This document shows, in pieces, positions 8,301 to 54,000 of a DNA stretch of 64,000 bases. Made by a program: the position numbers and the translations under genes. Location: NCBI RefSeq assembly GCF_963678975.1, contig NC_089275.1:27279977-27343976 (forward strand), written 5' to 3'. The stretch is from Dysidea avara (taxonomy: Eukaryota > Porifera > Demospongiae > Dictyoceratida > Dysideidae). The number at the start of each line of letters is the position of its first letter. Within the stretch, counting starts at the first letter, position 1. Below the pieces are notes generated by a model. That model worked only from the letters and a program-made list of their open reading frames with translations. It was not told the DNA's origin and did no database searches.

Positions 8301-11300
8301 GCATCATTTGTGCTACAAAATTATTAATTAACTGTTGTACACCCTCAAGGGCTTAGTTGTCACCTAAAACCTCACCTAGAACTGCTTTATGAACTAGGGA
8401 CTACCAGAAATTGATGTTATAGACAAGGGTTGTATTGGAAATAAATGGCTACGTGTGGGACTTGCCAATGGTGGAACAAAAATACGAGGGGTTCTGTTGC
8501 AGAACTTACGAGTGGTAAGGTCTGCACGCGTAATTAGTCACTGCCAAGTTTCTACCTTCGACGGTCTCACCCTACAGTGTAATTTTGCATTAAATCTGTA
8601 CCATATATAGTATTTAAATGCAAGTACACCTGTACATGTAATGGATCCTCTCAGTTATCCATATCTAATCAAAAACAGCTAAGCTGTAAAAAAAGGTGCG
8701 GCCCCAAAAAGGCCATGGTGAAAAAAGATGTGAAATCCAAGGTGGCGGCCAAGAAATGGCTGTGATGGTAGATTAATGGTAAAAATTTTAATAACGACAA
8801 TTCAGGTGAATTTGGTCTTAGCACAAAATTCACCTGAATCGTTGTTATTAAAATTTTTACCATTAACCTACCATCACAGCCATTTCTTGGCCGCCACCTT
8901 GGATTTCACATCTTTTTTCACCATGGCCTTTTTGGGGCCGCACCCTTTTTTTACAGTTTAGCTGTTTTTGATTAGATTTCACTTCTTTTTGTGGTTGTAT
9001 ACCCCAAAGCCGGCCATAGGCCGGCTTTAGGGATTTTTTTTTCTTTACCACAGGAAGAAGAAAAGATGAAGTAGATGTTAAATACTTTAAATATTTTATC
9101 AGTAAATGTACAAATTATATATATATATATATATATATAGTACATATATTTATTACAGAACACTCTACACGGTGGTTTCTTTATAACTGAACACTCTACA
9201 AAGTGACTTCTTGTAGCTGATATTTCTACAGGGCGATTTGTTTGTAGCTGAACTCTCTACATGATGGTTTCTTCGCAGCTGAATTCTCTACATGGTGGTT
9301 TCTTTACAACTGAACTCTCTACAACATGGTTTCTTTGCAGCTGAACTCTCTACAAGGTAACTTCTTCTAGCTGATGTCTCTACAGGGTCACTTGTTTGTA
9401 GTTGAACTCTCTACATGATGATTTCTTTGTAGCTGAACTCTCTACAAGGTATCTTCTTCTAGCTGATGTCTCTACAGGGTCACTAGTTTGTAGCTGAACT
9501 CTCTGCATGGTGGTTTCTTTGTAACTGAACTCTCTACAAGGTGACTTCTTCTAGCTGATCTTTCTACAAGGTGATTTGTTTATAGTTGAACTCTCTACAT
9601 GATGGTTTCTTTGCAGCTGAACTCTCTGCAAGGTAACTTCTTTAGTTGATCTCTGCACAGGGTGAATTGTTTGTAGCTGAGCTCTCTACAAGTGACCTCT
9701 TCTAGCTGATCTCTCTACAGAGTGATTTGTTTGTAGCTGAGCTCTCTACAAGTGACCTCTTCTACTGATCTCTCTACAGAGTGATTTGTTTGTAGCTAAA
9801 CTCTCTACAGGTGATTTGTTTGTAGCTGAACTCTCTACATGGTGGTTTCTTTGTAACTGAACTCTCTACAAGGTGACTTCTTCTAGCTGATCTTTCTACA
9901 GGGTGATTTGTTTGTAGCTGAACTCTCTACAAAGAACTTCTTCCAACTGATCTCTGTACAGGGTGTATTGTTTGTAGCTGAACTCTCTACAAGGTAACTT
10001 CTTCTAGCTGATCTCTATACAGAGTGACTTGTTTGTAGCCGAACTCTCTACATGATGGTTTCTTTGTAGCTGAATTCTCTAAAAAGGAACTTCTTCTAGC
10101 TGATCTTTCTACAGGGCGATTTGTTGCAGCTGAATTCTCCACAAGGTAATTTGGTTGCAACTGAACTGTCTACATGGTGATTTCTTGTAGCTGAGCTCTC
10201 TACAAGGTGACTTCTTCTAGCTGAACTCTCTACAGAGTGATCTTTTTGTAGCTGAAACTCTCTACAGGGTGATTTGTTTGCAGCTGAACTCTCTACATGA
10301 TGGATTCTTTGTAGCTGAACTCTCTACAAGGTGACTTCTTCTTGCTGAACTCTCTACAGGGTGAATTGTTTGTAGCTGATCTCTCTACATGATAGTTTCT
10401 TTGTAGTTGAACTCTCTACATGATGGTTTCTTTGTAGCTGAACTCTCTACAAAGTAACTTCTTCTAGCTGATGTCTCTACAGGGTCACTAGTTTGTAGCT
10501 GAACTCTCTGCATCGTGGTTTCTTTGCAACTGAACTCTCTACAAGGTGACTTCTTCTGGCTGATCTTTCTACAAGGTGATTTGTTTATAGTTGAACTCTC
10601 TACATGATGGTTTCTTTGCAGCTGAACTCTCTGCAAGGTAACTTCTTTAGCTGATCTCTGCACAGGGTGAATTGTTTGTAGCTGAGCTCTCTACAAGAGA
10701 CCTCTTCTAGCTGATCTCTCTAGAGAGTGATTTGTTTGTAGCTGAACTCTCTACATGGTGGTTTCTTTGTAATTGAACTCTCTACAAGGTGACTTCTTCT
10801 AGCTGATCTTTCTACAGGGTGATCTGTTTGTAGCTGAACTCTTTACAAAGAACTTCTTCAAACTCATCTCTGTACACGGTGAATTGTTTGTAGCTGAACT
10901 CTTACAAGGTAACTTCTTCTAGCTGATCTCTATACAGAGTGACTTGTTTGTAGCTGAACTTTCTACATGATAGTTTCTTTGTAGCTGAATTCTCTAAAAA
11001 GTAACTTCTTCTAGCTGATCTTTCTAGAGAGTGATTTGTTTGTAGCTGAACTCTCTACATGGTGGTTTCTTTGTAATTGAACTCTCTACAAGGTGACTTC
11101 TTCTAGCTGATCTTTCTACAGGGTGATCTGTTTGTAGCTGAACTCTTTACAAAGAACTTCTTCAAACTCATCTCTGTACACGGTGAATTGTTTGTAGCTG
11201 AACTCTTACAAGGTAACTTCTTCTAGCTGATCTCTATACAGAGTGACTTGTTTGTAGCTGAACTTTCTACATGATAGTTTCTTTGTAGCTGAATTCTCTA

Positions 11301-14300
11301 AAAAGTAACTTCTTCTAGCTGATCTTTCTACAGGGCGATTTGTTTGTAGCTGAATTCTCCACAAGGTAATTTGGTTGCAACTGAACTCTCTACATGGTGA
11401 TTTCTTGTAGCTGAGCTCTCTACAAGGTGACTTCTTCTAGCTGAACTATCTACAGAGTGATCTTTTTGTAGCTGAAACTCTCTACAGGGTGATTTGTTTG
11501 CAGCTGAACTCTCTACATGATGGATTCTTTGTAGTTGAAGTCTCTGCAAGGTAACTTCTTTAGCTGATCTCTCTACAGAGTGATTTGTTTGTAGCTGAGC
11601 TCTCTACAAGTGACCTCTTCTAGCTGATCTCTCTACAGAGTGATTTGTTTGTAGATGAACTCTCTACAGGTGATTTGTTTGTAGCTGAACTCTCTACATG
11701 GTGGTTTCTTTGTAACTGAACTCTCTACAAGGTAACTTCTTCTAACTGATCTTTCTACAGGGCGGTTTGTTTGTAGCTGAATTCTCTACAAGGTGATTTA
11801 TTTGCAGCTGAACTCTCTATTGGGTGAATTCTTCTAGCTGAACTCTCTACAGGGTGATTTTTTTCAACTGAACTCTCTACATGATGGTTTCTTTGTAGCT
11901 GAACTCTCTACAAGGTGACTTCTTCTAGCTGATCTCTCTACAGGGTGATTTGTTTACAGCTGAAATCTCTACATAGTGCATAGTTTCTTTGTAACTGAAC
12001 TCTCTACAAGGTGACTTCTTCCAGCTGATCTCTCTACAGGGTGATTTGTTTCTAGGTGAACTCTCTACAGGGTGACTTGCCTGTAGCTGAATTGTCTATC
12101 AGATTAACTGGTTGTAGCTGAATTCCCTACAGAATAACTTGCAATGTAATATAATTCTTTAATGGAGTAAGTTATAAACGTAGCCGAATGCTCTATTAGG
12201 GTGACTGTTCTATTAGAGTATATCGATCTCGCATTTGCAACACGTAGTTGGCTTTCGAATCATGACTCAGTGGTTTCTAATCCGATTCTTCTGTACTACT
12301 GCAAGGACTTTCTATGATGATTATTCCAGCTACACACTGATTTTCAGCTCCTTGCTCTAAGCGGTTTGCCTGGTAGGCGTGAAAACTAATAGTTTTTTAT
12401 TCATAAAAATCGATTGCGTAATTGTGACACAGGTTGGGTTTTGTGTCATATCTCCATGGTCTTTATCTCGATTCTCTTCAAACCACAAAAAGGCACTCCT
12501 ACGATGGTTACTCCATCTACATATCAATTTTCAACTCATTCCTCCGAGTGGTTTTCCCTGTAGGCGTGACAGACCTTCGACCTTATTTTACGCACATAAT
12601 TGGTCATAACTCCGTGAATGTTCATCGGATTCATACCAAAGTTGGTACTGAGATCCGCCTTAATGAGTTTCAGCCCGATTGGAGCACGCATTCGTGTTTT
12701 ATGGTGGATTTTGCGAAATGTGCGAAATAAAGAAGTAGAAGAAAAAAACGAAGAATTTAAAACTAAATTTTGTTCACTCGTATCTCGGAAATGGCATTAC
12801 CGATTTTCTTCAAATTTGGTATGTAGACTCCCATAACTGGCCGGCACGTGTTTAGCAAATTTGGTTCCAATCGGATAAGGGATCACAGAGCTACATAGGT
12901 GTGAAAATTGCGTTTTCTTTCTTCCTGTTAATATACTCACGGTGTGGCGCGCCGGCTTCTTGGGCCGCACGACACACTATTGTGTGTTTTGATACTATTT
13001 TCATATAAAGAATTCCACTGTAATATCTGAAGTTACCGTATCTGGACCCCCAATATTGGCACACCCTATAAATTGCATATCTGAATGTTAGAAAATGACT
13101 GTTCAATTAGACTGTTTCTTTTTATTACATGTTCAATTAAGAAAATTGAATGAAATTCTGTATGCACTGCAAATTCAGAATTTTGAAGTCTATTGATTTT
13201 ATACCATGGGTGTATTGCATATGCAGGCAATGTGTATTTGACTTTTAATTTTACAGTTGCAATTGCATCAAAATAAAGTCATTATATTTGCTATGTTGAT
13301 GTTACGTTAAATACATGTACTGCACTTCATTCCATATGCATGGGTCAAAAATTTTTTAATCAATTTTACTCTCTTAGGTGAAAAATACTAGGTTAAGTTT
13401 GAGAAACTGCATCAGTAACAGTGATTTGTGGCTTTAATAAATACAATTCATTAATGCTGCAAGTTTAAAATGTAGGGGAGATGCCAGATTATCACCTTGG
13501 GAACTTTCCTAGACTACATAAATTATCTATATAGGGAAAAGTTACCACCTGGTTTGAGAATGTTTTCTGCATTCAACAGTATGATAGTACTGTAAATTAG
13601 GGATCTTGAAGGTTTGGGTTTTTCTGGCCAAAAATATCACCCTAAAACCAGCCTCACAATACCTTCATGGAATATGCATGCTTTAGCAGTATTAATTACA
13701 TGTAGGTATAAAACGAAGCCAAAAGTGCCTTTAGTATGCTCTTATATCGTGCTACAATTATTTATTCTGTGGAATCTTGTATGCATAGATGCCTTCATTA
13801 ACTTGATAGCGGCTAAAGTTATGGGCTTGATTTTTTCACTTTTTGACATTGCTTCAGCCCAACAGGTGCCTTTTTGACATACTGCAATATGTACAATGCA
13901 TGCTTTATATTTATAGACGTATCTGTGTCCTCCTCTAGTGATCTGTGTCCCATTTATCTTTGCTGACAGCATAATGTGTCATAGCACCACATAATGGCTT
14001 CCCTATACATTTGTAGCGGGAATCATCCAATTTTCCCATTGTGAATGGATTGATTGCAGAGGTTCTTCTTGTAGTATTCTTCATTTGTAGTGCTGTGTAA
14101 TGAGGTGAACATACAGTAGCTGAAAACAAAGCATAATAGCCACTTCAGTAACTGATAGATGGGGCATGCGCTTAGATGAAAAAAAATAAGCCTGCATGGT
14201 GCCATTCTTTCTTTAAATGGAGTATGCATGGGATCACCAGTCATAATACATGTAAGTAAACAAACAAGTACAAGTAAAACGTAGGAATTTTAACATCAAT

Positions 14301-17300
14301 TTGGGATCAAAGTGTACACATACTAGAGGACATTTAATTCTAGACTGAAGTAGGCATTAAATATCCACTAGTATATCTTCAGGTGTAGGTGTCCTCCCTT
14401 GTTTCAATTCTTTAATTCCTTATTGAACAGTTGACACTTATTAAATTTCATAATTGTTTCTAAATTTTACTTGTACTTGTTTTGATAATAAGTCTGCTAC
14501 AGTATGTGAGCATTCAGTAATTTTCTACTGGGATGTACAGGGTAGTGATTAATAACTGTGATGACATATTTATATATCCTTCCCTTCATCTCTCCTGCAG
14601 GTCATTATTGAGGACTGCTGTTATAATTGTTCCCCTACTTGGGTGTACTTGGGTGTTTGGACTGTTGGCTATAAATGAAGGCACAGCTGTATTTGCATGG
14701 ATTTTTACTATATTGAATTCTCTACAGGTACTTAACATTAAATTGTTTATATTCCAATGTGAGAATATTAATATTTCCTGTCTACAGGGTGTAAGTATCT
14801 TGTTTCTCTATGTGCTGAAAAATGAGAAAGTTAGTTTAAAATATATCCATGAATTACTTGCATGCACGAATTACTTGCAACTATGTAAATGCTGTATTGT
14901 ATAAATCATTTCTCTTTGCTATTACAGGCAGAAAAATATTTGTTTTATGCTACTGCATGCCTAGGTTCTTGAGGTTAACAACAGAGTTTACAGCAATAAA
15001 TGAACTTCTAGAATGTATACAAACATTTCCTACTCTATGTACTTATTAACTATTGTCACTCCAAGGTTGTTGTGCACTCACACATAGTTTTGTATCTCTA
15101 TTATGTGTACACTGTAGTTTTTGAGGACAGTGAAAGTATGTGGACAGAAGTACTACTCTTCTGATGCTGGCACTCAATCTTCATCTGTGAGTTATGCTAC
15201 AGAGTGTGCTGATTAAATATAATGTTGATATTTATGCAGGTTAAAATGTTTACTCTGCAAAAAAATAAGAAAGCTTCTGACATAACTCTCAGTAAGTATT
15301 GTTTGCAGTGTGATGCATCAGCAGATCAAAGGTTACAGCCAGTGTTACAAATCAATTATATACTGGTATACACATGGTTGTAACAACTCAACTACATACC
15401 TTAGATAGGATTGGCAATGAAAAAATCAACCTCTATAGCTTCTTCTCCAACTCTGTGTGATCAATCCTACCAAAGTCTACATCAAAACTGTAGGCTAATA
15501 ATACAGGGTTTCCTCTTGCTGTTTCCATAATGCGCATTTTAATTTTTCGTGATTTTTCAGGTTGTTTTAATAAAATGGGCAGCAGCATCAGCAATCAATA
15601 TTTTGATAAATGGTACATTACATGGTGATCATTATATTTTTAAAAATGGATGTGTATTGTTGGGGTAATAGATGCTGCAAGTTTCTAAGTCATAGTGTGA
15701 ACAGCTTGTGTTTCCACATGAATACTATATTTAAAGTCCAAAAAGGTGTCTGACAGTTAGTATACCAACTCTGCACTTTGTTAAGTGAGTTGATTTTTTT
15801 ATTACAGACCCATCAAACGCTGTTTTAGTGAATATTGAAGTACAGCGAATCACCATTTAAGCCAGTGTATTTTGTGGAGCACCTCACCCAATAACCGAAA
15901 AAAACAATGGACAACATCCTAGATGTTCCTTCCCATTTTATGAATATGAGTCAAAATCTGTCAAAATTTTCAACATGCCTATATTCCAAACAGAAAGCAT
16001 TTGCTCTCTACCAAACCCATCATTTAAAACTAGACCACTGATAGGCTCCATCCCCTGGGTTACAAGTTAATTTAAAGGGAGTTGATTTTTTTCACTGCCA
16101 ACCCTAACTTAGGCCACACAATTTGGCCACCAATTAGTTCAAAGGTATAAAGACACTATACCACAACAGGAAGTCACAATACCGTAGAATTGGGTTGTTA
16201 AGTGCATGTGTCTATTAAGTGCATATTATTTGTTAAGCGCATGCACATTTCTTGTGATTAACGATTAACCATGGCTGATAAGCACACATGGGGCTTAAGA
16301 CACGACAAAGCTACAACGGGCTGAAATTACTGGAAAATGATTGTCTGCTCAAGCGCTTATGTCTCCCTTGAGGTCTTCCTTCACTGTGTATACAACAAAT
16401 AAGCCTTCTGGATTGCAATATTCTTGTTCATTATGAAGGATTTCATCCAGAAATAGAGTCAAATATCCTTACACACTGGCATTGTGACTGGTATGAACTA
16501 CTAACTCCTCCATTACAATGTATAGTGATTCCGTGTTAACACACCATAATTATTTATTAGGCGTATGCATCTAACAGATAGTATGATATTTTACAAAAGT
16601 TTTCTCTGAAAATTATAAGTGCATGCGCTTAATAACCCGATTCTAGGTACAAACTATGAATTTACCATTCCAATAAGTTGATGAAAACTATTACATACAC
16701 TGCCACAGCAGCAATGAATATCCATAACAATTACACTCTTCATGGGAAGTAGTGCAATGTCCTGGCTGAGTCATTGTTGACACACCACAAAGTTACTCGT
16801 TTACCATCACATTAAAATAATATCTAAGTATTTTAACTCTGTTGTACAGTATGCTCCTCAATGTTGACCTTAGGCTTACTACTATAGCTCCAGGTGTATT
16901 AGTTAACCACTACCACTGTTTTAAGATGCCCAAAAGTAGGTTCAATCCAGGAGTTAAGTACCATAGTTTGGAAATTATTTAACTGAAAAATGTTCACTGA
17001 AAATATTTCTGCCCCTTCCATTGCCTGATGAAACTTTTATGTGCAAATAATTATTATTGTGGGTGTGCTAGCCATCCATAGCTACATGGGACCGTGTGCA
17101 AGCCAAAAAAAGGAAAAGGTAATACAAAGCGCATACATCAATATATGCACTGGTACATATACTTAATGGATGGTTTCGGGTGGGAGGGAGGGAAAAAGTT
17201 TTCTGTCCACGAACATGCCATGCACTATGGCATGATCTCGTTATCTCAAACCTGTCAAGCCAGTTTATTACAATTGAATCATTATGACATCATTACGTCT

Positions 17301-24133: not shown

Positions 24134-25610
24134 GATCTCCTCTTGCTAGATTTCTCAAAAGCATTTGATACAGTATCTCATAACTGTTTACTATCCACTA
24201 GGGTATCAATGGTCAAATATTTAATTGGATTAAAGATTTTCTGCTTGACAGGAAACAGCAAGTCGTTCTTGGAAATGTGCACAGCTCATCTTGCAGTGTG
24301 GTATCTGGTGTTCCCCAAGGCTCTGTTCTGGGTCCTCTCCTGTTCATAATATACATTAATGACCTACCTATTTCTATATCCTCCAAGATTTGTTTGTATG
24401 CTGATGATGTAATAATTTACAGAGCTATCCTTTCAGGTGAAGATGCTTCAATGTTGCAAGAAGACTTAAATAAACTAGTCAACTGGGCTGCAACCTAGTT
24501 TATGTCTCTCAACCTTAACAAATGCGAACACCTAGTCATAACTAGCAAAAAACAACCTTTATCAACTACGTACAAGATCGGGGACTACCCCATTTGCGAA
24601 GTTACCTCAGCAAAATATTTAGGAGTTACAATAAGCCAAAATATTTCTTGGTCTAAACATATTGACATTTATCACTTGTAAAGCAAATTCTATTCTAGCT
24701 TTTTTGCAAAGAAACCTTAGCCAGTGCTCACTTTGTGTCAAATCTTTAGCTTATTTTACATATGTTAGACCGGTGTTGGAGTATGCCTCTGTTGTGTGGT
24801 CACCATTCACACAATCTAATATAGACAATATTGAAATGGTACAACGTATGGCTGCTAGATTGTTTTTAATGATTATTATAGATATTCTAGTGTAACTAAC
24901 ATGCTCAACCACTTAAAATGGGAATTCCTTGAACACAGAAGAACTAAGTCCAACATTATCATGTTCTACAAAATCATCAACAATATTGTTTCAGCTGACT
25001 TTTACAATTATCTTCATAGAAACTTTACCAGGACAAGAAGTCATCAAATGAGATTTATGACTATTTCGGCTAAAGCCACTCCAAATAAATTCTCTGTTTC
25101 CCATCCACCGCCCACATCTAGTTACTGTCAGCTCTAAATATTCCATTATTCCGTATTCTTCCATTACTTTCTGGTTATTTTTACATACTGAGAGGCTCAC
25201 TTGATCAGTGTCAGCTCACATGTCAGCAGTGCTATTCAGTTGGCACAAACTTCACATTTGTACTATTTTTGCAACTCGAAAAAGGAAGGAACAAGCTTAA
25301 GCATGTTTTTATGCAGCTTTATATGGTTGTGCCAGGCAAATAATGGCTTGAAAAGCTGCCAATCTTATAATGAAATAATTGAATGGACCGCCCGCCCGCG
25401 TGCAAATATGCTTGGGTCCAGGACGGGAAACAGAGAATTTATTTGGAGTGGCCTAAAAGAAACACCTACTATCACTCCTTCTTTCCCACAGCTATTCGAC
25501 TATGGAACTCTCTGTCTGAATGAACAGTTAATTCTTTTTTTGTAGCAATTAAATCTCCAAACTTACATTCATTTATTAAGTGTACGTTAACTTGATATGC
25601 ACTACGCTCA
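24134..25610 (+). pseudogene. 5'-truncated CR1-like LINE reverse transcriptase, interrupted by a MITE
   Basis: RT motifs in order: LLDFSKAFDTVSHN (about 24,140), a frame change, SGVPQGSVLGPLLFIIYIND (about 24,305-24,366), then YADDVIIY with the catalytic FADD-like YADD. A thumb region follows with VRPVLEYASVVWSPFT and MVQRMAARL. After the MITE at 25,074-25,453 the C-terminus resumes as YYHSFFPTAIRLWNSL. Several stops and frameshifts. The endonuclease and ORF1 are absent. A dead element. Confidence 0.85.
25074..25453 (-). mobile_element. PIF/Harbinger-type MITE, copy B, inside a LINE
   Basis: Same family as 22,189-22,568 but inverted. 380 bp, ends (A/G)GCCACTCCAAATAAAT and its mirror, TAA on both sides (25,071-25,073 and 25,454-25,456). 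It splits the LINE C-terminal coding sequence. The GGCC end has one change to AGCC. Confidence 0.92.
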
Positions 25611-25673
25611 TATTTGAGTCTTGCATAACAAAAAAATTAAAATCCCAAATCGATTAATGCTCACGTGATTACG

Positions 25674-25765
25674 ATGCACGACTTGGATTTCGCCATGAAA
25701 AACACTCAGATGGAGAGCATTTTGTTATCCTCGCCATCCTACGAGTTGAAAAACGTTGGGCTAAG
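25674..25765 (+). CDS. Candidate first coding exon, isolated
   Basis: ATG at 25,674 opens a frame (MHDLDFAMKNTQMESILLSS...) that ends at a consensus donor (CTAAG|gtgagt) at 25,766, followed by a relatively GC-rich stretch to about 25,890. This looks like the first exon and intron start of a host gene. No continuing exon was found downstream, where the Ginger element is inserted 135 bp away. It may be a real gene whose later exons I cannot recognise, or chance. Confidence 0.3.
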
Positions 25766-25900
25766 GTGAGTACGAGTGCTATAGCTTATTCACCGATCGT
25801 TTCCGCACGTTTTCGATTACGGACACGCCCCCACCGCGAAGCTGCACGGAGCAACCCGGCACTCCACAAGCAAGCTTACCTATCTAGGCCTTTAGTGAAC

Positions 25901-25953
25901 TGTAACAAAATATTTGGTCCGGGTGCATAAACGGTCCGGCCGGACCAAATATG
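25901..25953 (+). repeat. Left terminal inverted repeat of the Ginger element
   Basis: It begins TGTAAC at the target duplication. It aligns with the reverse complement of 31,712-31,762 through GGTCCGGG and ACGGTCCGGCCGGACC, with small gaps. A second palindrome copy follows at about 25,964-25,979. Confidence 0.88.
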
Positions 25954-26495
25954 TTCGACATAAATGGTCCGGCCGGACCATCTATGACGACATAAATGGT
26001 CCTACCCGAACATAAATGATCCGGGTTACCAAACTAAACTGCAACGACTATTTGCCACCGTACAGTCGACAAGAATAGCTATATACACCAATTATAGGTT
26101 AGCCTCATCTCTTTGAAGCGGTGCCTTCAAAGAAATCTCGCAAAATCTCTCAGCATGCTGACATAAACTAAATCCAATAGATATCTCAGTACTGCTTAGT
26201 TAGCTCAAATAGCAGACAGAGTTGGAGTGTATAGACTGTATAACTGGTTGTTGCGGCCGTATCTTGTTGGTATAGGGAGTCTGGTAGTTAGCTTATACAG
26301 CATATCCGGCTAAGGAGCAAGATTCGATACGACGCAGTCGCGTGCCGGCGTTCAATTTACTGACTGAGGATCCGCGGCTATACTGCAGCTACAGCAGGAC
26401 TATATACTAGCTCTAACGAACACGAAAGGCTCAGAGATCAAGTTTAGAGTGAATAATCTGCAACTTGAAGTGGCGCAAGTTGCTTGCTTCCAGTG
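25954..26495 (+). promoter_or_regulatory. 5' region of the Ginger transposase gene
   Basis: About 540 bp between the left inverted repeat and the chosen ATG. It has further GGTCC motifs (to about 26,015) but no clear TATA element that I would defend. It must hold the promoter if the element is autonomous. Confidence 0.4.
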
Positions 26496-28402
26496 ATGGC
26501 TCATAATACTGATAAGGAGGATAACCATTTCGAGGACGAATTGGAAACTGACACACTAGAAGATGTTTATGTTTATGTGACAAGGAAGCAGTATAGAGGA
26601 GGCCTTACTCAAAATCAGAAGCGAATTGTAAGAAGAAAGGCAGCAAACTTTTGTGTGGTTGATGGAGAATTGGTGTTTAGAAAAAAACATAAAGGAAAGG
26701 ATGAGGTGTGGCTATAGTGCACATACATGCATGTATATGTAGCCATATCATTTCTTAATTTGCATGTTCAGGTGCAACAAGTTCGATACATTAGAGAAAG
26801 AAAGGAACAGCTTAGGATTGTACAAGCTTGTCATGGAGATCAGACCTCTGGCCATCTTGGATACAGGAAGACACTGGCAAGAATTACTGAGAGGTTTATG
26901 TGGAAAGGGGTATCTAAGGATGCTAAAGAAATTGTAAGATGCACTCTGCATGAGCATGTAATACAAATGTGATGCCATATCTTGTACGGAATGCATAGGT
27001 GCAACGATGTGATATTTGCCAGCATGTGAACAGAAAGCTAGAAACTATTGCCCCTGCACTGAATCCTGTACCAGTCAAGGCTCCCTGGTATCATCTAGGC
27101 GTAGATTTTGTTGGCCCAATTGCATATCAGTCTCCAGCAGGTATGTATACAGTAAAAGCATGCAATGGCTCTGTAAAGATTAATGGTGAGATCTGTGGCA
27201 AACATATTATATTAATATAGTGACCATCACTAAAATATAATATAGCTATTGGCATTCACTTGTCACAGGTATCACCATGCACTTACTTTTCACAGTGCAT
27301 GCATGAATCAGCATCAATTATTATTATTTATTCTGTAAAAATTGCACACATTTTTTGCAGGAAATCGCTATATTTTAACAGTTATTGACTACTTCACAAA
27401 GTGGGCAGAGGCCATAGCTACCCCGGACAAAAGTGCATTTCAAGTAGCTAATTCTCTATTTAAGGTATCTATATACGTAGCTTTATGTAAATGATATCTA
27501 TTTATATATCTGTGTTTTATTATAGATTTTCATGAGGATGGGAATTCCTAGAGTCATCACAACAGATCAGGGAACAGAATTTAACAACCACCTTGATAAA
27601 CGAATGATGTCATTGCTCCAGATTGATCACAGATTAACAACTGCTTATCATCCGCAGGTATAATTTTCTTGCATTGGTGTCCGTAGCAATTATACAACTA
27701 CATTGTTATTATATCATATACAGATTGTCGATTAAGTATATATATTTCCCTTAGGCCAATGGCTTGGTTGAACGATTTAACCAGACACTACAGAACATGA
27801 TTGTGAAATTTATTGATCATAAGAAAGAGCAATGGGAAGACTTTTTGGATACATGTGTTTATAGCTATAATACCTCCAAACAAGAATCTACACAATACTC
27901 ACCATTTGAACTCATGTTTGCACGAAAGCCAGTGCTACCGGTTGACATTAATACCGAAAAGAAAGATCCTGATGTATTGTTAACGGATTTTTGCAAAGCA
28001 GAAGATCCTTCTCTACTTAATGAGCTTCATCATGCTAAGCAAGCAACACTTAATGCTGCAAAGGCTAACATTCTGAAAGCACAACAAAGACAAAAAGAAC
28101 AGTATGATAAGAGAAACTATAAGCCAGGTATGTAATATATATCTAAAGATACGCCAGTTCAATTTCTTTATGTAGGAGCTTATGCTGTAGGAGCCAAAAT
28201 GCTTATTAGAGATAATAAAAGGAAGAAAAGGAAGGGAGGAAAACTGGATTACAGATGGCTTGGTCCTTATGAAATTGTAAAATCACTAGGAAAAGGTCTC
28301 TACAGTTTAAAAGGAGTTGAAAATCCTGAAAAGGTCATTGAAAGAGTGCATGGCACTCGTCTCAAGCCTTATATGTCTCCAATACAGCCAATACCTCCTA
28401 AA
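26496..28402 (+). CDS. Ginger exons 1-7: HHCC, DDE integrase core, GPY/F
   Basis: The zinc-binding motif is H91-x6-H98 (ACHGDQTSGHLG) and C128-x2-C131 (RCDICQ). The core has D160 (GVDFVGP), D220 (TTDQGTEF) and E256 (ANGLVERFNQ), with 35 residues between D220 and E256, the exact retroviral/gypsy-integrase and Ginger spacing. Exon 7 encodes RWLGPYEIVKSLGKGLYSLK, the GPY/F module that follows the core in gypsy/Ginger integrases. All catalytic residues are intact. The region alone would also match a gypsy integrase. The termini and missing RT decide for Ginger. Confidence 0.95.
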
Positions 28403-30797
28403 GTAAGTTAACTGAATATTTGACATTACTTCTACCTTGGTTACCTCTTCTGTTTATGTTTAGAGTCCAACTGCAGTAGATGCATCTACCAGTTCTGGTA
28501 CATCATATTCCGATTCATCAAGCAAAAATCAAAAATTTAAGGATTGTGAAGGTATTTATTTATATAATACATTCAGTTAAGGATGTACACCCTGTCTTGC
28601 TAATACTGTATGCATAATTGTGTGTATCTGCATAAATTATGTGTATAGATAAATTTATAAGTTATTTGTTTGTAGTAAACCGACTGCAAGATCAACAAAT
28701 GAAATCTGACAGTACTGCAAGAAATTCTAATTCACCTGTGCCACTTCCTTCATTAAGCCAAGGAATAAGCAAGGAGCACTCTGATGGTATATGTGTATAT
28801 TTATTGAATTATACTTCAAGGTGTGCACATCGTACTTATTTCATTTAGTTGTACAGGATAGCCAGGAAGTTAACAGTATAATTCAAGCTAGCACACCTCT
28901 TTGTATGGAAGAGTTTGTTCCTGAACTACTTCCAAGTGGCACTCGAATTTCACCAATTTGTGGGACTAAGAAAGGAGATACACAGCTTAGTGCTACACCT
29001 AAATCACCTGGTAGGTGTTTCAACAAATGTCTGTATTATTTTGATTCATCACAAATTACAGAGAATAGAATTGTAGATGCAATTTTTGATTCGCCTAAAG
29101 GAGTTACTAAATGTAAAAGATTACTGCAGTTTTCTAGTCCTGATAAGAATTGTCCTGATCTTGTGAAACCACAGAGGAAGCGCAAATTGCTGAAAGATGT
29201 TTTTAAAACTGTAAGTTTGGCATATTCATCTGCATAATGGTGCTGCTACATGTGGCACATTGTACAGAATGAGAGTGCTTGCAAGAAGGTAAAGAGTGAT
29301 CCAGTGAAGGAGATTCATAAGAATGACTGTGAGATGGATACAGGATCCACTAATAATGCAGAGGTATAATAACAATGCTATACAGTAGTTATACAGCTAT
29401 ACATTATGCTACATGGAGCACATGTATAATGAATATATGTTATGTATGTATGCACAAAATATTATCATGTGTTTTATTCCTCAAGAAACAGCTTACTAAG
29501 ATTTGGAATGGAAAACCATGTCATGTTGTTAAAGCAAGGATAGGTAGAAATGCAGTTCACCACGGAAGTTTCCACAGCCTAAAACCAAATCAAGATGTAA
29601 ATGATGAGGTTCATTAATGTCTGACATGTATGTGCTTATTTAAATGTATTAAATTCCAAAGATAATCCATACATACCTTGAACTGTTATCAAATATCCAA
29701 GGAAATACTTTTGCCATGATTTCTCAGACACTATCTTGCATACTCAGCCATACCTCTGCTGGGAAGCATTCACACCTATTGTCTAAGGTACAGTTACAAT
29801 GACGGTTAGTAACATTTTGCACACAATAACAAAGTAATTAAGCTATGTATAATTATTGCAATGAGAGTTGTTCCCTTGGTTGCTAGGAATCATTGAGCAC
29901 GTATAAGTACATTGGAGGATGCTACAACCAAGGTAGTAACCATTGGATTCTCATTGTAAGTCTGCTCATCAGTAACATTGTCATCTGTTACGCTATTATG
30001 TTTTTAGGCTATGGACTTGGAGCAGAAAAGCTTTTATTATCTTGATCCCTATGGACCTTCACGGTCAAGCCGTGGTGCATTTGCTGCTGTAAAGTTAGTT
30101 AGTTACATGGCAAATAAGTTTTTTGGCATACATTTTACTTGAAAATGTGACTTCAATTGCTGAACACCTGTTTATACAGGAATTACTTCAAGAGAAGGGG
30201 TGAAATATTAGGAAAGGACCATTTAGACATCACTAAGTTTGAGTTGAAGCAGCTGAAGAGAAAGATTCAGTATGATACCTCCAACTGTGGTGTATACTGC
30301 ATGAAGGTATAATCATAAAATCATTATAAGTATAGCATTATAGTTTTTTGTTAGATGGCTGAGCAGCTGTTTCTATCAGGAAGCATTGAAGAAAATAGCC
30401 TGTGCAGAATGAATACTACACAAGCACGGATTGATATAGGTGTTGCATTGCTTTCATACTCAGGTACTATAGTACATAATGACCTCTAGCTACAAACGAA
30501 TGTGCCTGCATTATGGTATTTGATATACACATTCTATAGTTGATATGACCGAAAGGTGTATAATGTGTGGTGCAGGGGAACAAAGTATAAGTCACCCACA
30601 ATATGTTGATTGGGTAAGACTAATACACAATAATATTTGCACATTTTAATGTATTTTTACAGGTACGATGTGATAAATGTAAGCAATGGTCACACATCAT
30701 CTGTACCAACCTGAAGCCTGAAGAGGCCAAGAATGTAAAAACTTTTTCATGCCACGAATGCTCCCAGGACATTCACCAGATTAATGACTTTGAATAA
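26496..30797 (+). CDS. Ginger transposase: integrase + Ulp1-like protease + PHD finger
   Basis: Exons 26496-26705, 26772-26933, 26999-27140, 27361-27464, 27526-27657, 27755-28127, 28176-28402, 28464-28551, 28676-28786, 28849-29210, 29268-29363, 29486-29608, 29662-29787, 29887-29955, 30008-30093, 30180-30306, 30355-30463, 30540-30613, 30663-30797 (TAA). All introns are GT-AG, phases match throughout and the sum is 2856 nt, 951 codons plus stop, without internal stops. Domains: HHCC 91-131, D,D35E core (D160, D220, E256), GPY at 404-406, a low-complexity basic linker, Ulp1 fold about 670-850 (H771, D788, Q834, C840), PHD 889-940. The predicted role is cut-and-paste integration of the element in the nucleus. 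The protease and PHD parts suggest SUMO-related processing and chromatin binding (inference). The ATG at 26,496 is the first in frame after a GTG/TTG-only stretch. Confidence 0.9.
28464..29363 (+). CDS. Ginger exons 8-11: linker with basic patch
   Basis: Exons 28464-28551, 28676-28786, 28849-29210 and 29268-29363 encode a Ser/Pro-rich, poorly structured segment (residues about 451-669). It contains KPQRKRKLLKDVFK, a likely nuclear localisation signal, and acidic/basic stretches. No domain recognised. Exon limits rest on phase and splice signals only, so they are less certain than those of the flanking domains. Confidence 0.75.
29486..30306 (+). CDS. Ginger exons 12-16: Ulp1/C48-type cysteine protease domain
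   Basis: SFHSLKPNQDVNDEIIHTYL is the start typical of Ulp1-type proteases (FxxLxPxxWLND.VI), here with DV in place of WL. The catalytic set is NHWILI (H771), YYLDPYG (D788), and QYDTSNCGVYC (Q834 and C840). All four positions are present in the correct order and spacing, so an active peptidase is plausible. The family cleaves ubiquitin-like (SUMO) conjugates. In this element it could release transposase or host proteins from SUMO (inference). Exon 12 uses an acceptor CCTCAAG at 29,485. The acceptor at 29,491 (AAACAG) is also possible and keeps frame. Confidence 0.88.
30355..30797 (+). CDS. Ginger exons 17-19: C-terminal PHD finger
   Basis: Exons 30355-30463, 30540-30613 and 30663-30797. The zinc ligands follow the Cys4-His-Cys3 order: C889, C892 (RCIMCG), C910, C913 (VRCDKCKQW), H918, C921 (SHIICTNL), C937, C940 (FSCHEC). 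The Trp before the His, usual in PHD fingers, is present (W916). PHD fingers bind histone H3 tails, so it may steer integration toward certain chromatin (inference). The protein ends INDFE and TAA. Confidence 0.92.
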
Positions 30798-30971
30798 TTG
30801 CAACCATGCCATGTATCTTTATAGCTACAGTGCTTTAGCATTATAATCTTATTTTAATAGCAAAATTCACCTGTGGAAAATTGTAACAGAATTAGCTACG
30901 TAGCAAGATATGAGTAACTATACCTAACATAGCTACAGTTAATTATTATTAGCTGTGCCAGAATATAGCTA

Positions 30972-31115
30972 CACTGCATGTTAATTCGAAAATATGAACT
31001 TCATACACTGTAGATAACACCTGTGGCAACTTGTATGAATCTCATACATGTAGCTATGATTTGTATGATCTTCATGCAAGTTGGCACAGGAGTCATCCAC
31101 TCGAATTAACAGTGT
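30972..31115. repeat. Small fold-back inside the Ginger 3' region
   Basis: CACTGCATGTTAATTCGA at the left and TCGAATTAACAGTG at the right, with ACACCTGTGGCAACTTGTAT mirrored as GCAAGTTGGCACAGG. Downstream of the stop codon. It may be a small MITE inserted in the element. Confidence 0.6.
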
Positions 31116-31320
31116 AATTATTCTAATCACGAATTGTTCTGGAATAGAAACTACAGTATAGTACACCATAGTTGTTTATGCTAGCAAAGAGACGTTCTAC
31201 TATAGGGTCGGCTATATTATGCTCAGTCCAGGTACTGGTATTGATATAGCTTTCTTGTAGCAAAGCCACGGCATCAGGCATGCGTTTGTGGACGCTTAGT
31301 TACGGTGGCAGAGGGATCAG

Positions 31321-31752
31321 TCCCTGGTGGCACAGTGGCGGAATACTTGAGGTAGGGAGTGCCGTTATGGCCGGCTAATGAAAGACTGGAGGCGGACCAT
31401 TTATGTTCAGGCCGGACCATTTTTGCACAGACATGTATGGTCCGGGGGGACCAGTTATGCATGCACAAATGGTCCGGCCGGACCATTTATGACAGCATAA
31501 ATGGTCCGGCCGGACCGTTTTTGCCCGGACCATCGGTCCCTGGTGGCACAGTGGCGGAATACTTGAGGTAGGGAGTGCCGTTATGGCCGGCTAATGAAAG
31601 ACTGGAGGCGGACCATTTATGTTCAGGCCGGACCATTTTTGCACAGACATGTATGGTCCGGGGGGACCAGTTATGCATGCACAAATGGTCCGGCCGGACC
31701 ATTTATGACAGCATAAATGGTCCGGCCGGACCGTTTTTGCCCGGACCATCGG
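31321..31752 (+). repeat. 216-bp perfect-looking tandem duplication of the Ginger right end
   Basis: 31,321-31,536 and 31,537-31,752 appear identical. Each unit runs from TCCCTGGTGGCACAGTGG to CCGGACCATCGG and contains two GGTCCGGCCGGACC palindromes. The right subterminal region therefore has four such palindromes, against two at the left. Open frames across it are the product of the repeat. Confidence 0.95.
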
Positions 31753-31762
31753 TGCGTTGACA
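31712..31762 (-). repeat. Right terminal inverted repeat of the Ginger element
   Basis: Read on the minus strand it begins TGTCAACGCACCGATGGTCC and continues through the same GGTCCGGCCGGACC palindrome as the left end. It is followed directly by the GAAC duplication at 31,763. Confidence 0.88.
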
Positions 31763-31907
31763 GAACTCATTTAAAAAAAAAATTATTATTATATAGTCTA
31801 TATATATATATATATTGTTTTTTCCCCGGGGCTAGATGTACTGCTCTTGCCACCACCCCCAGCACTAGGCCGGTGTTAAAGTGTTGGACAGCTGGTAATA
31901 TCACCAA

Positions 31908-32636
31908 TCAAACAAGGCCAACGGACTCCAAGGTGAAGCGACCTTCGGAGTAGGCCAGATCAATATATGATGTTGATGGACTGTGATTTGAAGAGTGATA
32001 ACCCCTCAAGCACATCACTAAAGATCTTAAAAGCGAAAAGCAAAGCCTACATCGCAGCCAGAATAAGCATTTGCTGTAATTAATGCTATGTTTCTCAGCC
32101 AACATAGAAGCAAGCTTCCTAAACACTGTTGTAGCAATGGGCCCCATGTCACCAGTAGCTGCAAACACCAATGGTGAAAAGCAAGCTCTCTCAACCTGTC
32201 TAACATGCTCATCATATGCCCATCGTTTCTCATGTTCATAAAGTTGATAACATCTGGACAATTGGGAACGAAAATAGGAGCGTGCAAAAGGGTTAAACAC
32301 CTGGACATCGAAAAATGCATGCTGCCTATTTCGACCCCAAAAGTCCCTGGTGACAACATCAAGATGGGCACCATCTTCTCTATTGGCAGTAACAAATTGC
32401 AATGGCTTGCATTCAACAGGCTGGAGAGCAGGCTCAACACCAACATCACAGCATACTTCACTCAACAGACTTGCAGTTAAATCCCTGACTTCATTGTGGC
32501 AGACAGATGGAAACCCATCACAGGGACAAGTAAAGGCATGCTCCACACAAAAAGGTTTACCACAAACACATGTCTGAGGCAAGTTAACAGGTTGCCATCC
32601 AAATTTTAAACACAGAGCATCACGAAACTCCCTCAT
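31908..32636 (-). pseudogene. C-terminal fragment of a retroelement protein (zinc motif + PD-(D/E)XK-like nuclease)
   Basis: A 242-codon open frame. It has a zinc-like cluster (CVCGKPFCVEHAFTCP, then a His near SVCHNEVRD), then DGAHLDVVTRDFW and FFDVQVFNP, which fit a PD-(D/E)XK-type core, then a helical C-terminus (LRCRLCFSLLRSLVMCLRG). This Cys/His cluster plus nuclease-like layout resembles the restriction-like endonuclease end of R2-type retroelements. I recognise the family as common in invertebrate genomes but cannot name it securely. No RT is found upstream on this strand, so it is 5'-truncated. Confidence 0.55.
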
Positions 32637-32639
32637 ACT

Positions 32640-34790
32640 TTTTCCATAAACGATTCAATAGCACTGATTAAAAGATTAAACTCTCATAACCGAAATTTTC
32701 CGTGGTCTCTCTAGGATATATCCGTTAATCATAGCCAAACATGAACAAAACTTACTAGCTGCTGACCCATAATCAAAACTTTTAGGTATGCATATACTCA
32801 GTGGCTGCACTCATGTTGGCTTGGGTGATTGATCGCCCTGTACAGGCGCCCTAATAAGTGTTACATACTAGCTATAACATGGGGCATTCAGGTTTTACCT
32901 GATATGTATACTCTCTGCCCTCGGGCTTGTGGCCCTTGGGCAGTCGGGCATACATATCAGGCAAAGCCCTCATTCCCATGTTACAACTATTACTTATGAA
33001 ATTAGTTTCTGCTTATTGCCTTGCTCTATACTCATCATATAGTGGTGGGTTGAAGGTTCCTGAAGGCCCTTAGCTAGCATGACTCAATAAATCCAATCTT
33101 AGCATGTGTAAAAATTAAAAAAATATAATTATATTATATAGGTCCAGTAGTCCAATTTAGTGTTCCAGTCCAGTCTAGTGATTAGTTACACCTAATCTAA
33201 CCCAGACCTTAACCCTAACCTAACAGGTAAAAACCATACATTCCCTTATCCTAGTTGTGTGTCTTAGAGCACTACTCCTAAACCCAAGAGTGCTGTTCCT
33301 ATTCCCAGGAGCACTTTCTTAATCCTAGGGGCACTGTTTCTAATCATAGGGGAGTGGCAAAAAAAACTTTTTTTTTACAATTACTATGATGAGGTGGTGT
33401 TTGCTGTATGCATATTTCCATGATTATCCAAACAGTTAAAGTAAAGAGAGGGCTTGACAATGTGTGACAAAGTGCCAGTAAACAGGAAAACTTTACGGAT
33501 TTCTGACCAATTAGTGGGGCCTGGGGAAATCTCTCCCATGGAAATCTTTGAAGCACAAGTGTGCCAAGATTGAATCAGGAAGTGATTTTAGAGAAATGGA
33601 AGTAATTTAGCAAAACAGCAATTTAAGCTGAAGAGACAATATTTAAAAATAAGAACTACAATTGCATACATGCAAGCGTGGATTTTAAGGTAATTCAATT
33701 TTGTAGTGAACTGTAAAAAAGAAAATTAAAACTAGTTGGATTGTAAGGCAAATTTATTCAAAGAGTAGACTACGAAATTGCAAAGTTTTGAAAATGGCTA
33801 TCTCAAGATTGGACCTTAAGGTACATTAAATCAAATCACTGTAGTAAATTGTAAACGAGTAAAGATGTACAACACATAAGTATATATAACTTTGAGTTTA
33901 TACTTTTCTGTGGTGCAGATGGATATTTTTGTCTAAGTTTTACAACTAGCCAAAAGCCATTTACAACTAGCTTTATGACCACAACTAGCTCCCTTTTTCT
34001 AGCCCTTGTCCTAGGGGCATTGTTCCTAATCCTAGGAGCACTGTTCCTAATCCTACAACTGTATTTCTTAAACTATATGGATGAATTCCTAATGTTTATA
34101 CAAGTGACCGACTGAATAAATGTTTGCACCATGACCAGTGACCGGCTAAATATCCAGCAAAATTGTTAAAAATACACACATAGTCAAATGCACATAACAA
34201 AGTCAGTCTTCATCTTCTGCTGCATACTACTATAGAAAAAAAACAATTCAAAAGGAAGCTTCAGAGAGGCCCAGTTTTTATTTTTATACCAATTTCTTCT
34301 TAACAACTGAAAGACTCTTCTCCAGTAAATAATACACACATTGCAAATTTAAACTACAAAAACAATCACAAGAAGTCAATTGGATTATTCAAATCTGTAT
34401 AGTGTTCATTATTATTGTTCTAATGGAGAGGCAGGTGCCCCTCAGTAAAAGCACGGTCAGCAGCTGGTACATGGCACACAGGCATGCTTGGATCGAGAAT
34501 GCGATCTGCTGATACACATTATAGAGGAACAAAACAAGGAGAGCCCCAAACTACAACAATGGAGCCAGCCCATAACCATAGAATACAGGGAACTACATAC
34601 CGCCAGATGTGTAAAATACAAGGAGTGTAAAACTTTCATGTTCCATCATAAGCACAGCATTTCTCCATTTCGTGTTTTCAGAAGGTAGCAGCGATGTAGT
34701 AGAGTGGGCTGCAAAATATTTAAATACCATACATCATTAGGTGTGATAGTAGTAAATTATTAAACATTTCAGAAGCCCTAGCATCTACAT
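32640..34790. other. Intergenic, repeats only
   Basis: It holds a relic of the 44.5-kb fold-back (33,066-33,192) and two small clusters of a 21-bp motif like AATCCTAGGAGCACTGTTCC (33,255-33,350 and 34,005-34,060). A palindromic pair TTACCTGATATGTATA / TACATATCAGGCAAA lies around 32,890-32,965. No coding region recognised. Confidence 0.5.
33066..33192 (-). repeat. Relic of the CAGTGGACTGGACTACTGG fold-back family
   Basis: GGTCCAGTAGTCCA..., GTTCCAGTCCAGTCTAGTG and upstream AATAAATCCAATCTTAGCATGTG align with the right arm end of the element at 44,493-45,350, with many changes. Confidence 0.6.
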
Positions 34791-50434: not shown

Positions 50435-53268
50435 CTATGCATTTTGCAAACAGTTCTTGAAAGTAAGTAAGTCTATATTGTCAAGATCTTCCATATCTAA
50501 ATTGTTCCAGTCTGGTATTGATCTTGGTAAGAAAGAGTTACTATATCGATTTGTTCTGGCATACAACTGTAATAGCTTCAAGGGATGGTTTGCCCTGGTA
50601 CTTGTTGCAGGAGATAACACTGGCAGATACTGATTTGGAACATAAATTAATTTGTTTACAAACTTAAACAACAGCATCAGACGTGCCTGTTTCCTACGAT
50701 CTTCCAGTGTTGGCCATTTTAATTCCACTAACATTTCAGTTATACTGTCCCTATGATTCCTTCTCCAAGGTCTATTTAACACGAAACGTGCAGCACGATG
50801 TTGTATCATCTCTAACTTGTGAATGAGTGATTGTTGATGTGGATCCCAGATAGAAGAGCAGTATTCAATAGATGGCAAGACAATCTGTTTATATGCATGT
50901 TCTTTTAAGTGAGGTGGACAATGGTGGAGAGTTCTTCGCAAAAATCCCAGTAGACGATTAGCTTTATTGCACACTGAAGTTATGTGAGGGGTCCATGACA
51001 ACTTGTTATCTAAAAGTACTCCCAAATAGTGATGTCTCTCAACAACTTCTAAGGGGATTTTGTACATTGTATAGGAGAACTCACTAGCAGAATGTAGTGT
51101 AGATATCTGCATGATGCAACATTTTGAAACATTAAATTCCATTTGCCAAATATCAGCCCACGATGATAATGTGTCAAGATCACTTTGGAGTATCTTATGA
51201 TCTTCGGGTGAGTAGATAGGACGATAAACTAAACAATCATCTGCAAAAAGTCTCAACTGACTGTGGATGTTAGTTACAATATCATTTATATATATCAGAA
51301 ACAACACTGGACCGAGCACTGATCCTTGTGGTACACCTGATGTTACACTGCAAGGCGAAGACTGCCTACCATCAATGTACGATTTGTAAGAAACGATTGT
51401 AGCCACTGTAACAATTCACCTCTTATACCATAGAAATTCAGCTTGTGAGCTAGCCTAGCATGGGCAACTTTATCAAAAGCTTTTGCAAAATCTAAGATAG
51501 CCACATCAACCTGAACTTTGTTATCAACTGCTCTGGCAAAATCATCAACTGCAAGAAATAGCTGGGCTTCACATGATCGCTTTGATCTAAATCCATATTG
51601 TACATCAGTTAATATGTTGTTTGACTCGAGGTGTTTCATTATTTGACTAACTAAAATGTGTTCTAATGTTTTACAGACCAAAGATGTAAGAGACACTGGG
51701 CGATAGTTTCTGGGATCAGTCTTATCACCCTTCTTATATATTGGGGTTACATTAGCTTGTTTCCAGGAGTCAGGCACAGTGCCAATTCTTAATGATTGAT
51801 TGAAGAGATGTGTCAGTAGAGGAGCTATTTCAGAAGCAACTTGTTTCAAAAATGCAGCATGTATGTTGTCAGGACCCGGGGATTTAGTTGTATCGCACTC
51901 AGCAAGAAGGTTTCTCACACCATTTAGTGTAATGTGAATGTCTGGGATGGATGGATAGGGAGAATTACCCTTATCTGGAATACAACTAGCGTCCTCAGAG
52001 GTAAATACAGATTTAAACTGGTTGTTTAGGATCTCTGCTTTCTCTAGTGAGTCAGTAATTATATTCTCTGCTTGGTCCTTTAAGGCGCCAATTTCGATAT
52101 TGTCTTGACGTTTACTTTTAATATAATGCCAAAAACGTTTCATTTTGTTATTACCAGATTCAGGGTTTGAAATATTAGATAGATATTGATTGTGCTGCTG
52201 ACGCGTCATACATTTAGTTTGATGTTGTAGTCTTTTATATTCATCCCAATCCTCTGTACGTTGGTATTTCTTTGCACGATTATAAGTTCGCTGTTTCTTC
52301 TTGATCAGTCGTTTTAGTGCAGCATTCATCCATGGTAGGTGGAACTTACTACCAATAGTTTTCTTGGGTACCATCTCTTGTATTAGTTGTGAGCATTTCT
52401 CATAAATATATTCCCAATTTTCGTTCACACTTCTCTGGGTGGTAGAGTTTAGTTCAAAATATCTCTCATAGATGTCTAACATTCTTTCTCGTATAAGGTC
52501 CCAGTTTGCTTTATGATATAGGAAGATTTCTCTAGGAGGTTTCTTTACTAATTTAACCTGAGTGGAGATATCCGCTACAACTGCATTATGGTCGCTGATG
52601 CCAGGGGTAGTTTGGCAGGATGTCACTAGATCTGGGTGGCTAGCAAAGAATAAGTCTAAAATGTTTGTACCCCTTGTAGGTGTGGTAACCAACTGTTCGA
52701 AATGAAGATCTTCTGTAATTGAAAGGAGTTTCTCCCTAAAGGATACAGGTACATATGATTCTGTTAATGATTTACATTGCCAATCAATTCCAGAAGCATT
52801 AAAGTCACCACCAAGAAATATTCTTGCTGTTGGATGGGCATTTCTGATGTCGTTGATGGTATTTTCTAATTCATCTAGGATAGTTGTAGAAGAGTTTGGA
52901 GGACAGTAGACTGAACCCACTATGATGCTTTGCTTGTGTTTCATATGGATATGCACCCAAACTTGTTCGACTGATGTAGAAACATGTAACAGAGAAGATG
53001 GGATCTCATTTCTAATTAGAATGAATACACCGCCACCATGTCTATTTCTGTCGTTTCGATAAACAGTGTAATGTGGGGGGAAAATTTCTGAGGACATAAT
53101 TTTTTCGTCTAAGTAGGACTCTGTTCCCATGAGGAGGTCTAACTTTTGTACATGGAGTAGGGTTTCAAGCTCAGGACATTTATTTACAACACTACGACAA
53201 TTTACAATTGCTAGATTCAATGATTGTAGGTTTTGAGAATTTGCTTGGAGACCAGCCCCTTGAGATAG
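50435..53268 (-). pseudogene. LINE ORF2: AP-like endonuclease + reverse transcriptase, one frameshift
   Basis: The first frame reads on from the ORF1 stop, with EN motifs NLAIVNCRSVVNK, GTESYL, GGGVFILIRNE, IFLGGDFNASGIDW and ISDHNAVVADI (the catalytic SDH). RT follows, with YKKGDKTDPRNYRPVSLTS, VQYGFRSKRSCEAQL and AILDFAKAFDKVAH. The frame shifts by one base near 51,360-51,400. The second frame gives SGVPQGSVLGPVLFLIYIND, LFADDCLVYR (catalytic FADD), the thumb and the C-terminus (SFLPRSIPDWNNL). The endonuclease and RT catalytic residues are present. The single frameshift makes this copy inactive unless it is a sequencing error or a programmed shift. Confidence 0.9.
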
Positions 53269-53985: not shown

Positions 53986-54000
53986 ATTTCTATAATGGTG

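Follow-up and report, generated by a model that had tools for sequence, protein, structure and literature searches.

The 64-kb stretch of DNA analysed here (the window) carries a 5.9-kb element at 25901-31762 that has the structure of a Ginger-superfamily DNA transposon, with paired ends enclosed in a short target duplication and, between them, a multi-exon gene for an integrase-type transposase. The element begins with TGTAA and finishes with TGACA, giving the TGTNR pattern at both ends (TGTAA on the left and TGTCA when the right end is read inward), and GAAC is found directly outside each end. An end-pair test was performed using the two TGTNR sites in 25601-26000 and the two YNACA sites in 31651-31900. 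Matching 4-bp flanks were seen for one of the four possible pairs, which is the pair at which the inverted repeats begin. These repeats are approximately 120 bp long and are clear but imperfect, with identity in 94 of 125 alignment columns. The alignment score of the two 120-base ends was 143, compared to a best score of 70 (mean 40, standard deviation 9.4) for 1000 random window pairs drawn with satellite stretches and element ends excluded; in a run of 500 pairs that kept these regions in, random pairs scored as high as 167, above the ends. The terminal TG/CA and the GAAC duplication are undamaged. Thus the GAAC duplication and TGTNR-type ends reported in an initial annotation of this DNA are confirmed, while the matching inverted repeats that it described are present in imperfect form. 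The left flank lies at a dispersed repeat (25401-25457) that is matched at 96-98% by 36319-36264 and 22241-22185; the DNA around the element is thus rich in repeats.

Using splice sites and open frames, we assembled the gene manually into a chain of 19 exons (26496-30797) that encodes 951 codons plus stop. All 18 of its introns are of the GT..AG type, with lengths of 48-220 nt. A 20-exon variant, with an additional intron at 29011-29061 and an acceptor AG ending at 29491, is equally open and gives a protein of 932 amino acids. The 19-exon structure of the initial annotation is one of these two open models, of 951 and 932 amino acids. The shorter form is identical at 928 of 932 residues, with four differences, to the public protein P0001, a Dysidea avara uncharacterized protein (isoform X2) that a protein search returned as a full-length match with 98% identity. 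Because the 20-exon splicing matches P0001 this closely, the gene stands beyond chance. The two frames of at least 110 codons that lie within the element are both part of the gene model. An alternative start of exon 18 at 30576 (939 amino acids) was rejected, as the PHD finger would then lose its first CxxC.

The predicted protein combines an integrase with a C-terminal protease and a zinc finger. Above the Pfam cut-off we see an H2C2 zinc finger (PF17921, residues 80-136), an integrase core (rve, PF00665, 153-249) and a C48 peptidase domain of the Ulp1 type (PF02902, 766-866; E 1.1e-10). Below it are SH3_Tf2-1 (385-440; E 3.2e-4, missing the curated cut-off) and PHD (889-940). As first annotated, the catalytic residues are all in place: the H2C2 residues are H91, H98, C128 and C131, and the DD35E triad is D160, D220 and E256, the latter pair being separated by 35 residues. 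A GPY motif occupies residues 404-406, within a region (382-439) that forms strands in the model of P0001. The Ulp1 residues H771, D788, Q834 and C840 are present, as is a C4HC3 PHD pattern at 889-940. In HMMER alignments, the catalytic DD35E residues of P0001 and its CxxC fall on the corresponding positions of Ty3 and foamy virus integrase, and the Ulp1/C48 triad of the window falls on that of yeast Ulp1. Upstream of the H2C2 finger, a YPYY-like region could be placed by eye (Y33, F52 and F61), but Arg34 replaces the Pro; Ephydatia rows have YP when aligned here, and YR is also seen in D. avara P0225 and Hydra P0133. No Pfam match to reverse transcriptase (RT), RNase H or gag was found in the protein. 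The initial annotation did not include the Ulp1 protease or the PHD finger, nor the arrays of palindromes, the duplication in the right arm or the departure of the target duplication from CCGG/CCGT described below.

An AlphaFold model of P0001, made with 18 relatives as input, has a mean predicted local distance difference test score of 65 and a predicted template modelling (TM) score of 0.34, with mostly confident domains and a linker (444-646) that is not confident. In a Foldseek search with this model, ranks 1-11 were occupied by foamy virus integrase and Ty3 chains. Their whole-chain target TM scores were only 0.39-0.47, because domain placement is unresolved in the P0001 model, but the foamy virus core alone (3l2q_B) gave a TM score of 0.89 at 2.2 Å. 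Yeast Ulp1 was found at rank 38 (target TM score 0.77). The PHD part matches 17 distinct solved sequences at E ≤0.01, comprising ALFIN-like, KDM5A/B, EBS, SHORT LIFE, PHF2, CXXC1, BPTF, a KDM7 homolog, PHF8 and an unnamed PHD protein. Many of these proteins read H3K4me3. For KDM5B, the third match by E-value, the likeness lies around the second cysteine pair (vDWVqCD...CnQWfHqvC). Judged by sequence, the PHD matches offer a lead toward chromatin targeting.

Both ends of the element contain arrays of palindromic boxes. The perfect 14-bp palindrome GGTCCGGCCGGACC has six exact copies in the window, all inside the element. In total there are 11 boxes, which are variably degenerate and spaced 32-34 bp apart within an array, and which are plausible binding sites for the transposase. 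The right subterminal region is present as a perfect 216-bp tandem duplication (Table 1), which doubles the right-arm boxes. The register given in the table has no mismatch, and one starting 4 bp earlier (31316-31531) has one. A perfect repeat of this length must be recent or maintained by conversion, or else be an effect of assembly. Between the stop codon and the duplication lies an imperfect 147-bp hairpin, with an inverted match of 94 columns at 74% and a predicted fold of -58.5 kcal/mol (for a 150-base piece); given its tips and TA flanks, it may be a small miniature inverted-repeat transposable element nested in the larger one.

Table 1 Features of the element and their positions in the window
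Feature	Position	Strand	Basis or remark
Left GAAC, 4-bp target site duplication	25897..25900	none	End-pair test
Left terminal inverted repeat, TGTAAC...	25901..26020	+	Palindromes GGTCCGGCCGGACC at 25933 and 25966; degenerate third box near 25998
Leader, inferred 5' untranslated region/promoter region	26021..26495	+	Position only
Exon 1	26496..26705	+	ATG start; YPYY-like Y33-R34-F52-F61, placed by eye
Exon 2	26772..26933	+	H2C2 zinc finger, first part (H91, H98)
Exon 3	26999..27140	+	H2C2 CxxC; first catalytic D160
Exon 4	27361..27464	+	Integrase core
Exon 5	27526..27657	+	Second catalytic D220
Exon 6	27755..28127	+	Catalytic E256; end of integrase core
Exon 7	28176..28402	+	GPY/F module, SH3-like
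Exons 8-11	28464-28551, 28676-28786, 28849-29210, 29268-29363	+	Low-confidence, probably disordered linker
Exons 12-17	29486-29608, 29662-29787, 29887-29955, 30008-30093, 30180-30306, 30355-30463	+	Ulp1/C48 domain
Exons 18-19	30540-30613, 30663-30797 (including stop)	+	C4HC3 PHD finger, residues 889-940
Imperfect 147-bp hairpin after stop, tips TACACTG...CAGTGTA, TA-flanked	30970..31116	none	Fold and inverted match
First copy, perfect 216-bp tandem duplication of right subterminal region	31320..31535	+	Palindromic boxes
Second copy, 216-bp duplication, beside true right end	31536..31751	+	
Right terminal inverted repeat, inward TGTCAACG...	31643..31762	-	Exact palindromes at 31687 and 31719; overlaps second 216-bp copy
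Right GAAC, target site duplication	31763..31766	none	End-pair test

The integrase was placed using two trees. A quick tree held 116 of 121 rows, the other five having been dropped for a short or missing match. In it, the window falls in a 29-row set that contains no RT or RNase H rows (Shimodaira-Hasegawa-like approximate likelihood ratio test, 98), and P0030 branches with Ginger1-like rows at a fork that has no support. A careful tree was then calculated for 53 rows picked after the quick tree, namely the window, 27 Ginger1-like rows and 25 of the 68 RT/RNase H rows. Here the window belongs to a 20-row set with Hydra and sponge proteins, Ephydatia ones among them, again with no RT/RNase H rows, at a support of 99/96. 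An approximately unbiased (AU) test rejects a grouping of the window and P0001 with the 25 RT/RNase H rows (p 1.8e-5), a value to be read in the knowledge that the test presupposes a group named before the tree is seen and that this one was chosen afterwards. Long branches in the careful tree belong to P0030, P0043 and P0066. The 27 reference rows include 16 with Ulp1, OTU or PHD and 11 with none of these in the tables; the latter were chosen for lacking RT together with their place in the quick tree or a Hydra, sponge or ENA origin, and there is no named Repbase Ginger1 among the 27. The careful tree also joins an Ephydatia protein that has an OTU domain to one carrying Ulp1 and PHD at 100/99 (P0007 and P0135), which hints that OTU and Ulp1 may have been exchanged between close Ginger1 relatives.

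Among known systems, the closest likeness is to Ginger1, especially its Ulp1/PHD families such as Hydra Ginger1-9_HM: TGTNR ends and a 4-bp duplication are common to both, as are the H2C2, DDE and GPY/F modules and the C-terminal Ulp1 and PHD (PMC2836005). The size of the element (5.9 kb) and of its inverted repeats (~120 bp) lie within the published ranges of 2.6-7 kb and 40-270 bp (PMC2836005). The differences are also clear. Where the element has GAAC, Ginger1 has CCGG/CCGT; among 112 Hydra Ginger1 copies the duplication was CCGG in 75% and CCGT/ACGG in 24% (PMC2836005). A later paper gives a Ginger1 duplication length of 4 bp and names no sequence (PMC10045372). The element has 18 or 19 introns and a protein of 951 amino acids, compared to the 0-4 introns tabulated for Ginger1 and its roughly 500-800 amino acids, and the apparent replacement of the YPYY Pro by Arg, in a motif placed by eye, would likewise be unlike Ginger1 (PMC2836005). 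In the accessible part of that paper, we found no mention for Ginger1 of palindrome arrays or of a duplicated right arm like those seen here. The same text does not agree with the initial view that complete elements of this kind are rarely seen undamaged, as it reports complete elements in three species and Hydra families of >70, >74 and >100 copies, and judges one of three Hydra families to be still active (PMC2836005).

Ginger2/TDD elements resemble the window in their TGTNR ends, 4-5 bp duplications and integrase-type transposase, but they lack GPY/F and YPYY and prefer RTATAY, whereas the element has GPY and GAAC (PMC2836005). With Ty3/gypsy and foamy virus integrases the element has in common the H2C2 finger, DD35E core, GPY/F-type SH3 module and fold; it differs from Ty3/gypsy in having no RT or long terminal repeats (LTRs) and in its added Ulp1 and PHD. 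The host genes GIN1, GIN2 and Imagin, which were set against the element by their descriptions only, are multi-exon and derive from Ginger1-type transposases. The element keeps its inverted repeats and catalytic triad. Inverted repeats are reported to be absent from Imagin and two related Ciona genes, and the triad to be lost in Imagin, incomplete in GIN2 and kept in mammalian GIN1 (PMC12863088, PMC2836005, PMC3424704).

Related proteins are found in sponges. The integrases of the Ginger1-like sponge proteins P0002, P0003, P0004, P0011 (Ephydatia muelleri) and P0122 all fall in the window's 20-row set. P0002, which like P0122 is an ENA protein, has 50% whole-protein identity to P0001; P0121 has no integrase part, and Ulp1 is followed by PHD in P0002, P0011 and P0121. 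When the C-terminal part was searched by phmmer against the 121 proteins, it matched P0002, P0003, P0004, P0121 and, weakly, the fish protein P0043; the same search found no match to the Ulp1 parts of Ephydatia proteins except a marginal one to P0017 (E 0.00056). We considered an exchange of Ulp1 modules between sponge lineages: matches between the C-terminal parts of different groups are difficult to establish, yet the groups share the Ulp1-PHD order. P0003, P0004 and P0121 make up a second D. avara family. P0003 and P0004 differ by five mismatches and one gap over 791 aligned columns, P0003 and P0121 are 99.7% identical over 371, and the longest contigs of the three clusters differ (18.98, 14.21 and 50.15 Mb). 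P0225, on a 39.47-Mb contig, has stretches in common with this family when compared by eye. The protein comparisons suggest recent spread of kin elements in D. avara, and recent mobility of the element itself is plausible.

Overall, we consider it highly probable (roughly 0.88) that the locus is a Ginger-superfamily DNA transposon with the structure of an autonomous element, assigned by its transposase to the Ginger1 branch and lying in the genome of a probable sponge, D. avara or a very close relative. The host is judged from P0001, and mobile elements can pass between species. The sequence shows directly the ends with their target duplication, a spliced gene that is open throughout, the order of its domains and the catalytic residues. 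Several observations weigh against this assignment. At this single insertion, GAAC departs from the CCGG/CCGT trait published for Ginger1, so the element is filed under the Ginger superfamily nearest to Ginger1 and not as a canonical Ginger1; the structurally intact, Ginger1-like transposon of the initial annotation is supported. One GAAC site cannot show a changed target preference of the family. In the quick tree the 68 RT/RNase H rows do not form one side of a branch (nine changes), and in the careful tree the split of all 28 Ginger1-like from all 25 RT/RNase H rows has support of only 94/78. The inverted repeats are imperfect, and no AATAAA was found after the stop within the element. BLAST found no second DNA copy within the window (best extra match 34 bases, E 0.007). 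The 90% cluster of P0001 has 31 members and one contig given, so these could be isoforms of one locus or many loci. Among GTDB genome contigs and IMG/VR contigs, a P0001 peptide pattern was seen in six and two stretches, respectively, with none confirmed. The palindrome-box pattern gave 0 matches in each collection; both are prokaryotic or viral, and so are silent on copies in a sponge genome.

A remnant of a gypsy LTR retrotransposon that kept only its integrase would account for the alignment of the P0001 integrase to Ty3 over residues 60-424 (E 8.9e-27), and GPY/F and TG...CA ends are common to the window and gypsy. We nevertheless find this origin extremely improbable. The ends are inverted, and the longest direct repeat of the two ends is a 63-nt palindrome array at 73-76%, not an LTR; the protein is without RT, RNase H or gag matches and continues from the integrase into Ulp1 and PHD, and the AU test rejects grouping with the RT/RNase H rows. 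In agreement with the initial annotation, then, the element is not placed in a gypsy clade with LTRs. Little more can be said for domestication of a Ginger1 transposase as a host gene, in the manner of GIN1, GIN2 or Imagin, with remnants of the ends kept by chance. The single copy within the window and the one contig of the P0001 cluster would fit such a gene, and host genes have arisen from Ginger1 on several occasions (PMC2836005, PMC12863088), but in the element both ends survive, the 4-bp duplication matches and no catalytic residue of the integrase or protease is missing, whereas Imagin is described as having lost both the DDE triad and the inverted repeats (PMC12863088). As the sister family in D. 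avara also looks dispersed over different contigs, we regard domestication as quite unlikely.

Immobility of a structurally complete copy is a more serious possibility, though still the less probable state: the element might be a dead or trans-mobilised relic of a once-active family. Consistent with decay are the imperfect match of the two ends, the duplication in the right arm, and the hairpin and missing AATAAA after the stop. Set against them are 951 codons without stop or frameshift, a difference from P0001 of only four residues in 932, and the undamaged TG/CA termini and duplication. This account overlaps with our preferred reading of a structurally autonomous Ginger transposon, which makes a claim about structure and kind and not about present activity.

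For such a transposon, a working cycle can be proposed. The transposase would bind the palindromic boxes in both ends, and by analogy with integrase chemistry the ends would be paired in an intasome-like complex, trimmed or cut by hydrolysis at TG...CA, and joined to the target by strand transfer with a 4-bp stagger, which would leave the GAAC duplication. The Ulp1 domain might strip SUMO from the transposase or from nearby repair or chromatin proteins, and the SUMO idea is also found in PMC2836005. The PHD finger might tether the complex to H3K4-methylated chromatin. A bolder picture, which we think unlikely, is of a sponge transposon that is mobile today and whose single enzyme combines three modules facing the host, namely an integrase of the retroviral type, a SUMO protease and a PHD reader of the H3K4me3 type. 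It would choose its targets by chromatin and not by CCGG, and its ends would be recognised through palindromic box arrays that can expand, as the 216-bp duplication, which looks fresh, suggests.

The superfamily is a known one, and the locus probably adds sponges to the hosts of intact Ginger elements. PMC2836005 does not contain the word 'sponge', and there was no report of Ginger in sponges among the matches listed by searches of the open-licence literature; Repbase and subscription journals lie outside that scope, and a prior record there is possible. Neither 'Ginger' nor 'transpos' is matched in the main text of PMC12909245, which describes the D. avara genome. How Ginger1 is excised is described as unexplained, since integrases normally just integrate (PMC2836005). 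As an intact copy whose ends are defined, whose two transcript models are open and whose product has a nearly identical public counterpart, the element could serve directly in a transposition assay, and it allows the roles of the attached SUMO protease and PHD finger to be asked about. We judge the interest of the locus as moderate, because an open mechanistic question becomes testable.

Elsewhere in the window, scans with Rfam (gathering scores) and for tRNA genes found nothing. Large satellite arrays with 31/61-bp units (GAACTCTCTACAAGGTGATTTCTTTGTAGCT) are found at 9158-12131 and 62629-63905, on the two sides of the window and in opposite orientations. A non-LTR retrotransposon remnant at 50438-54093 (-) has endonuclease and reverse transcriptase matches, the latter split over two overlapping frames. 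Just to the right of the element, a 248-residue open frame (31911-32654, -) has no Pfam match at E 0.01; on visual inspection it resembles the C-terminal end of a retroelement protein. Finally, an open frame at 14521-14901 (+) gives a partial match to 7tm_2, the secretin-family seven-helix receptors (E 5.7e-8), and is probably an exon of a host gene.

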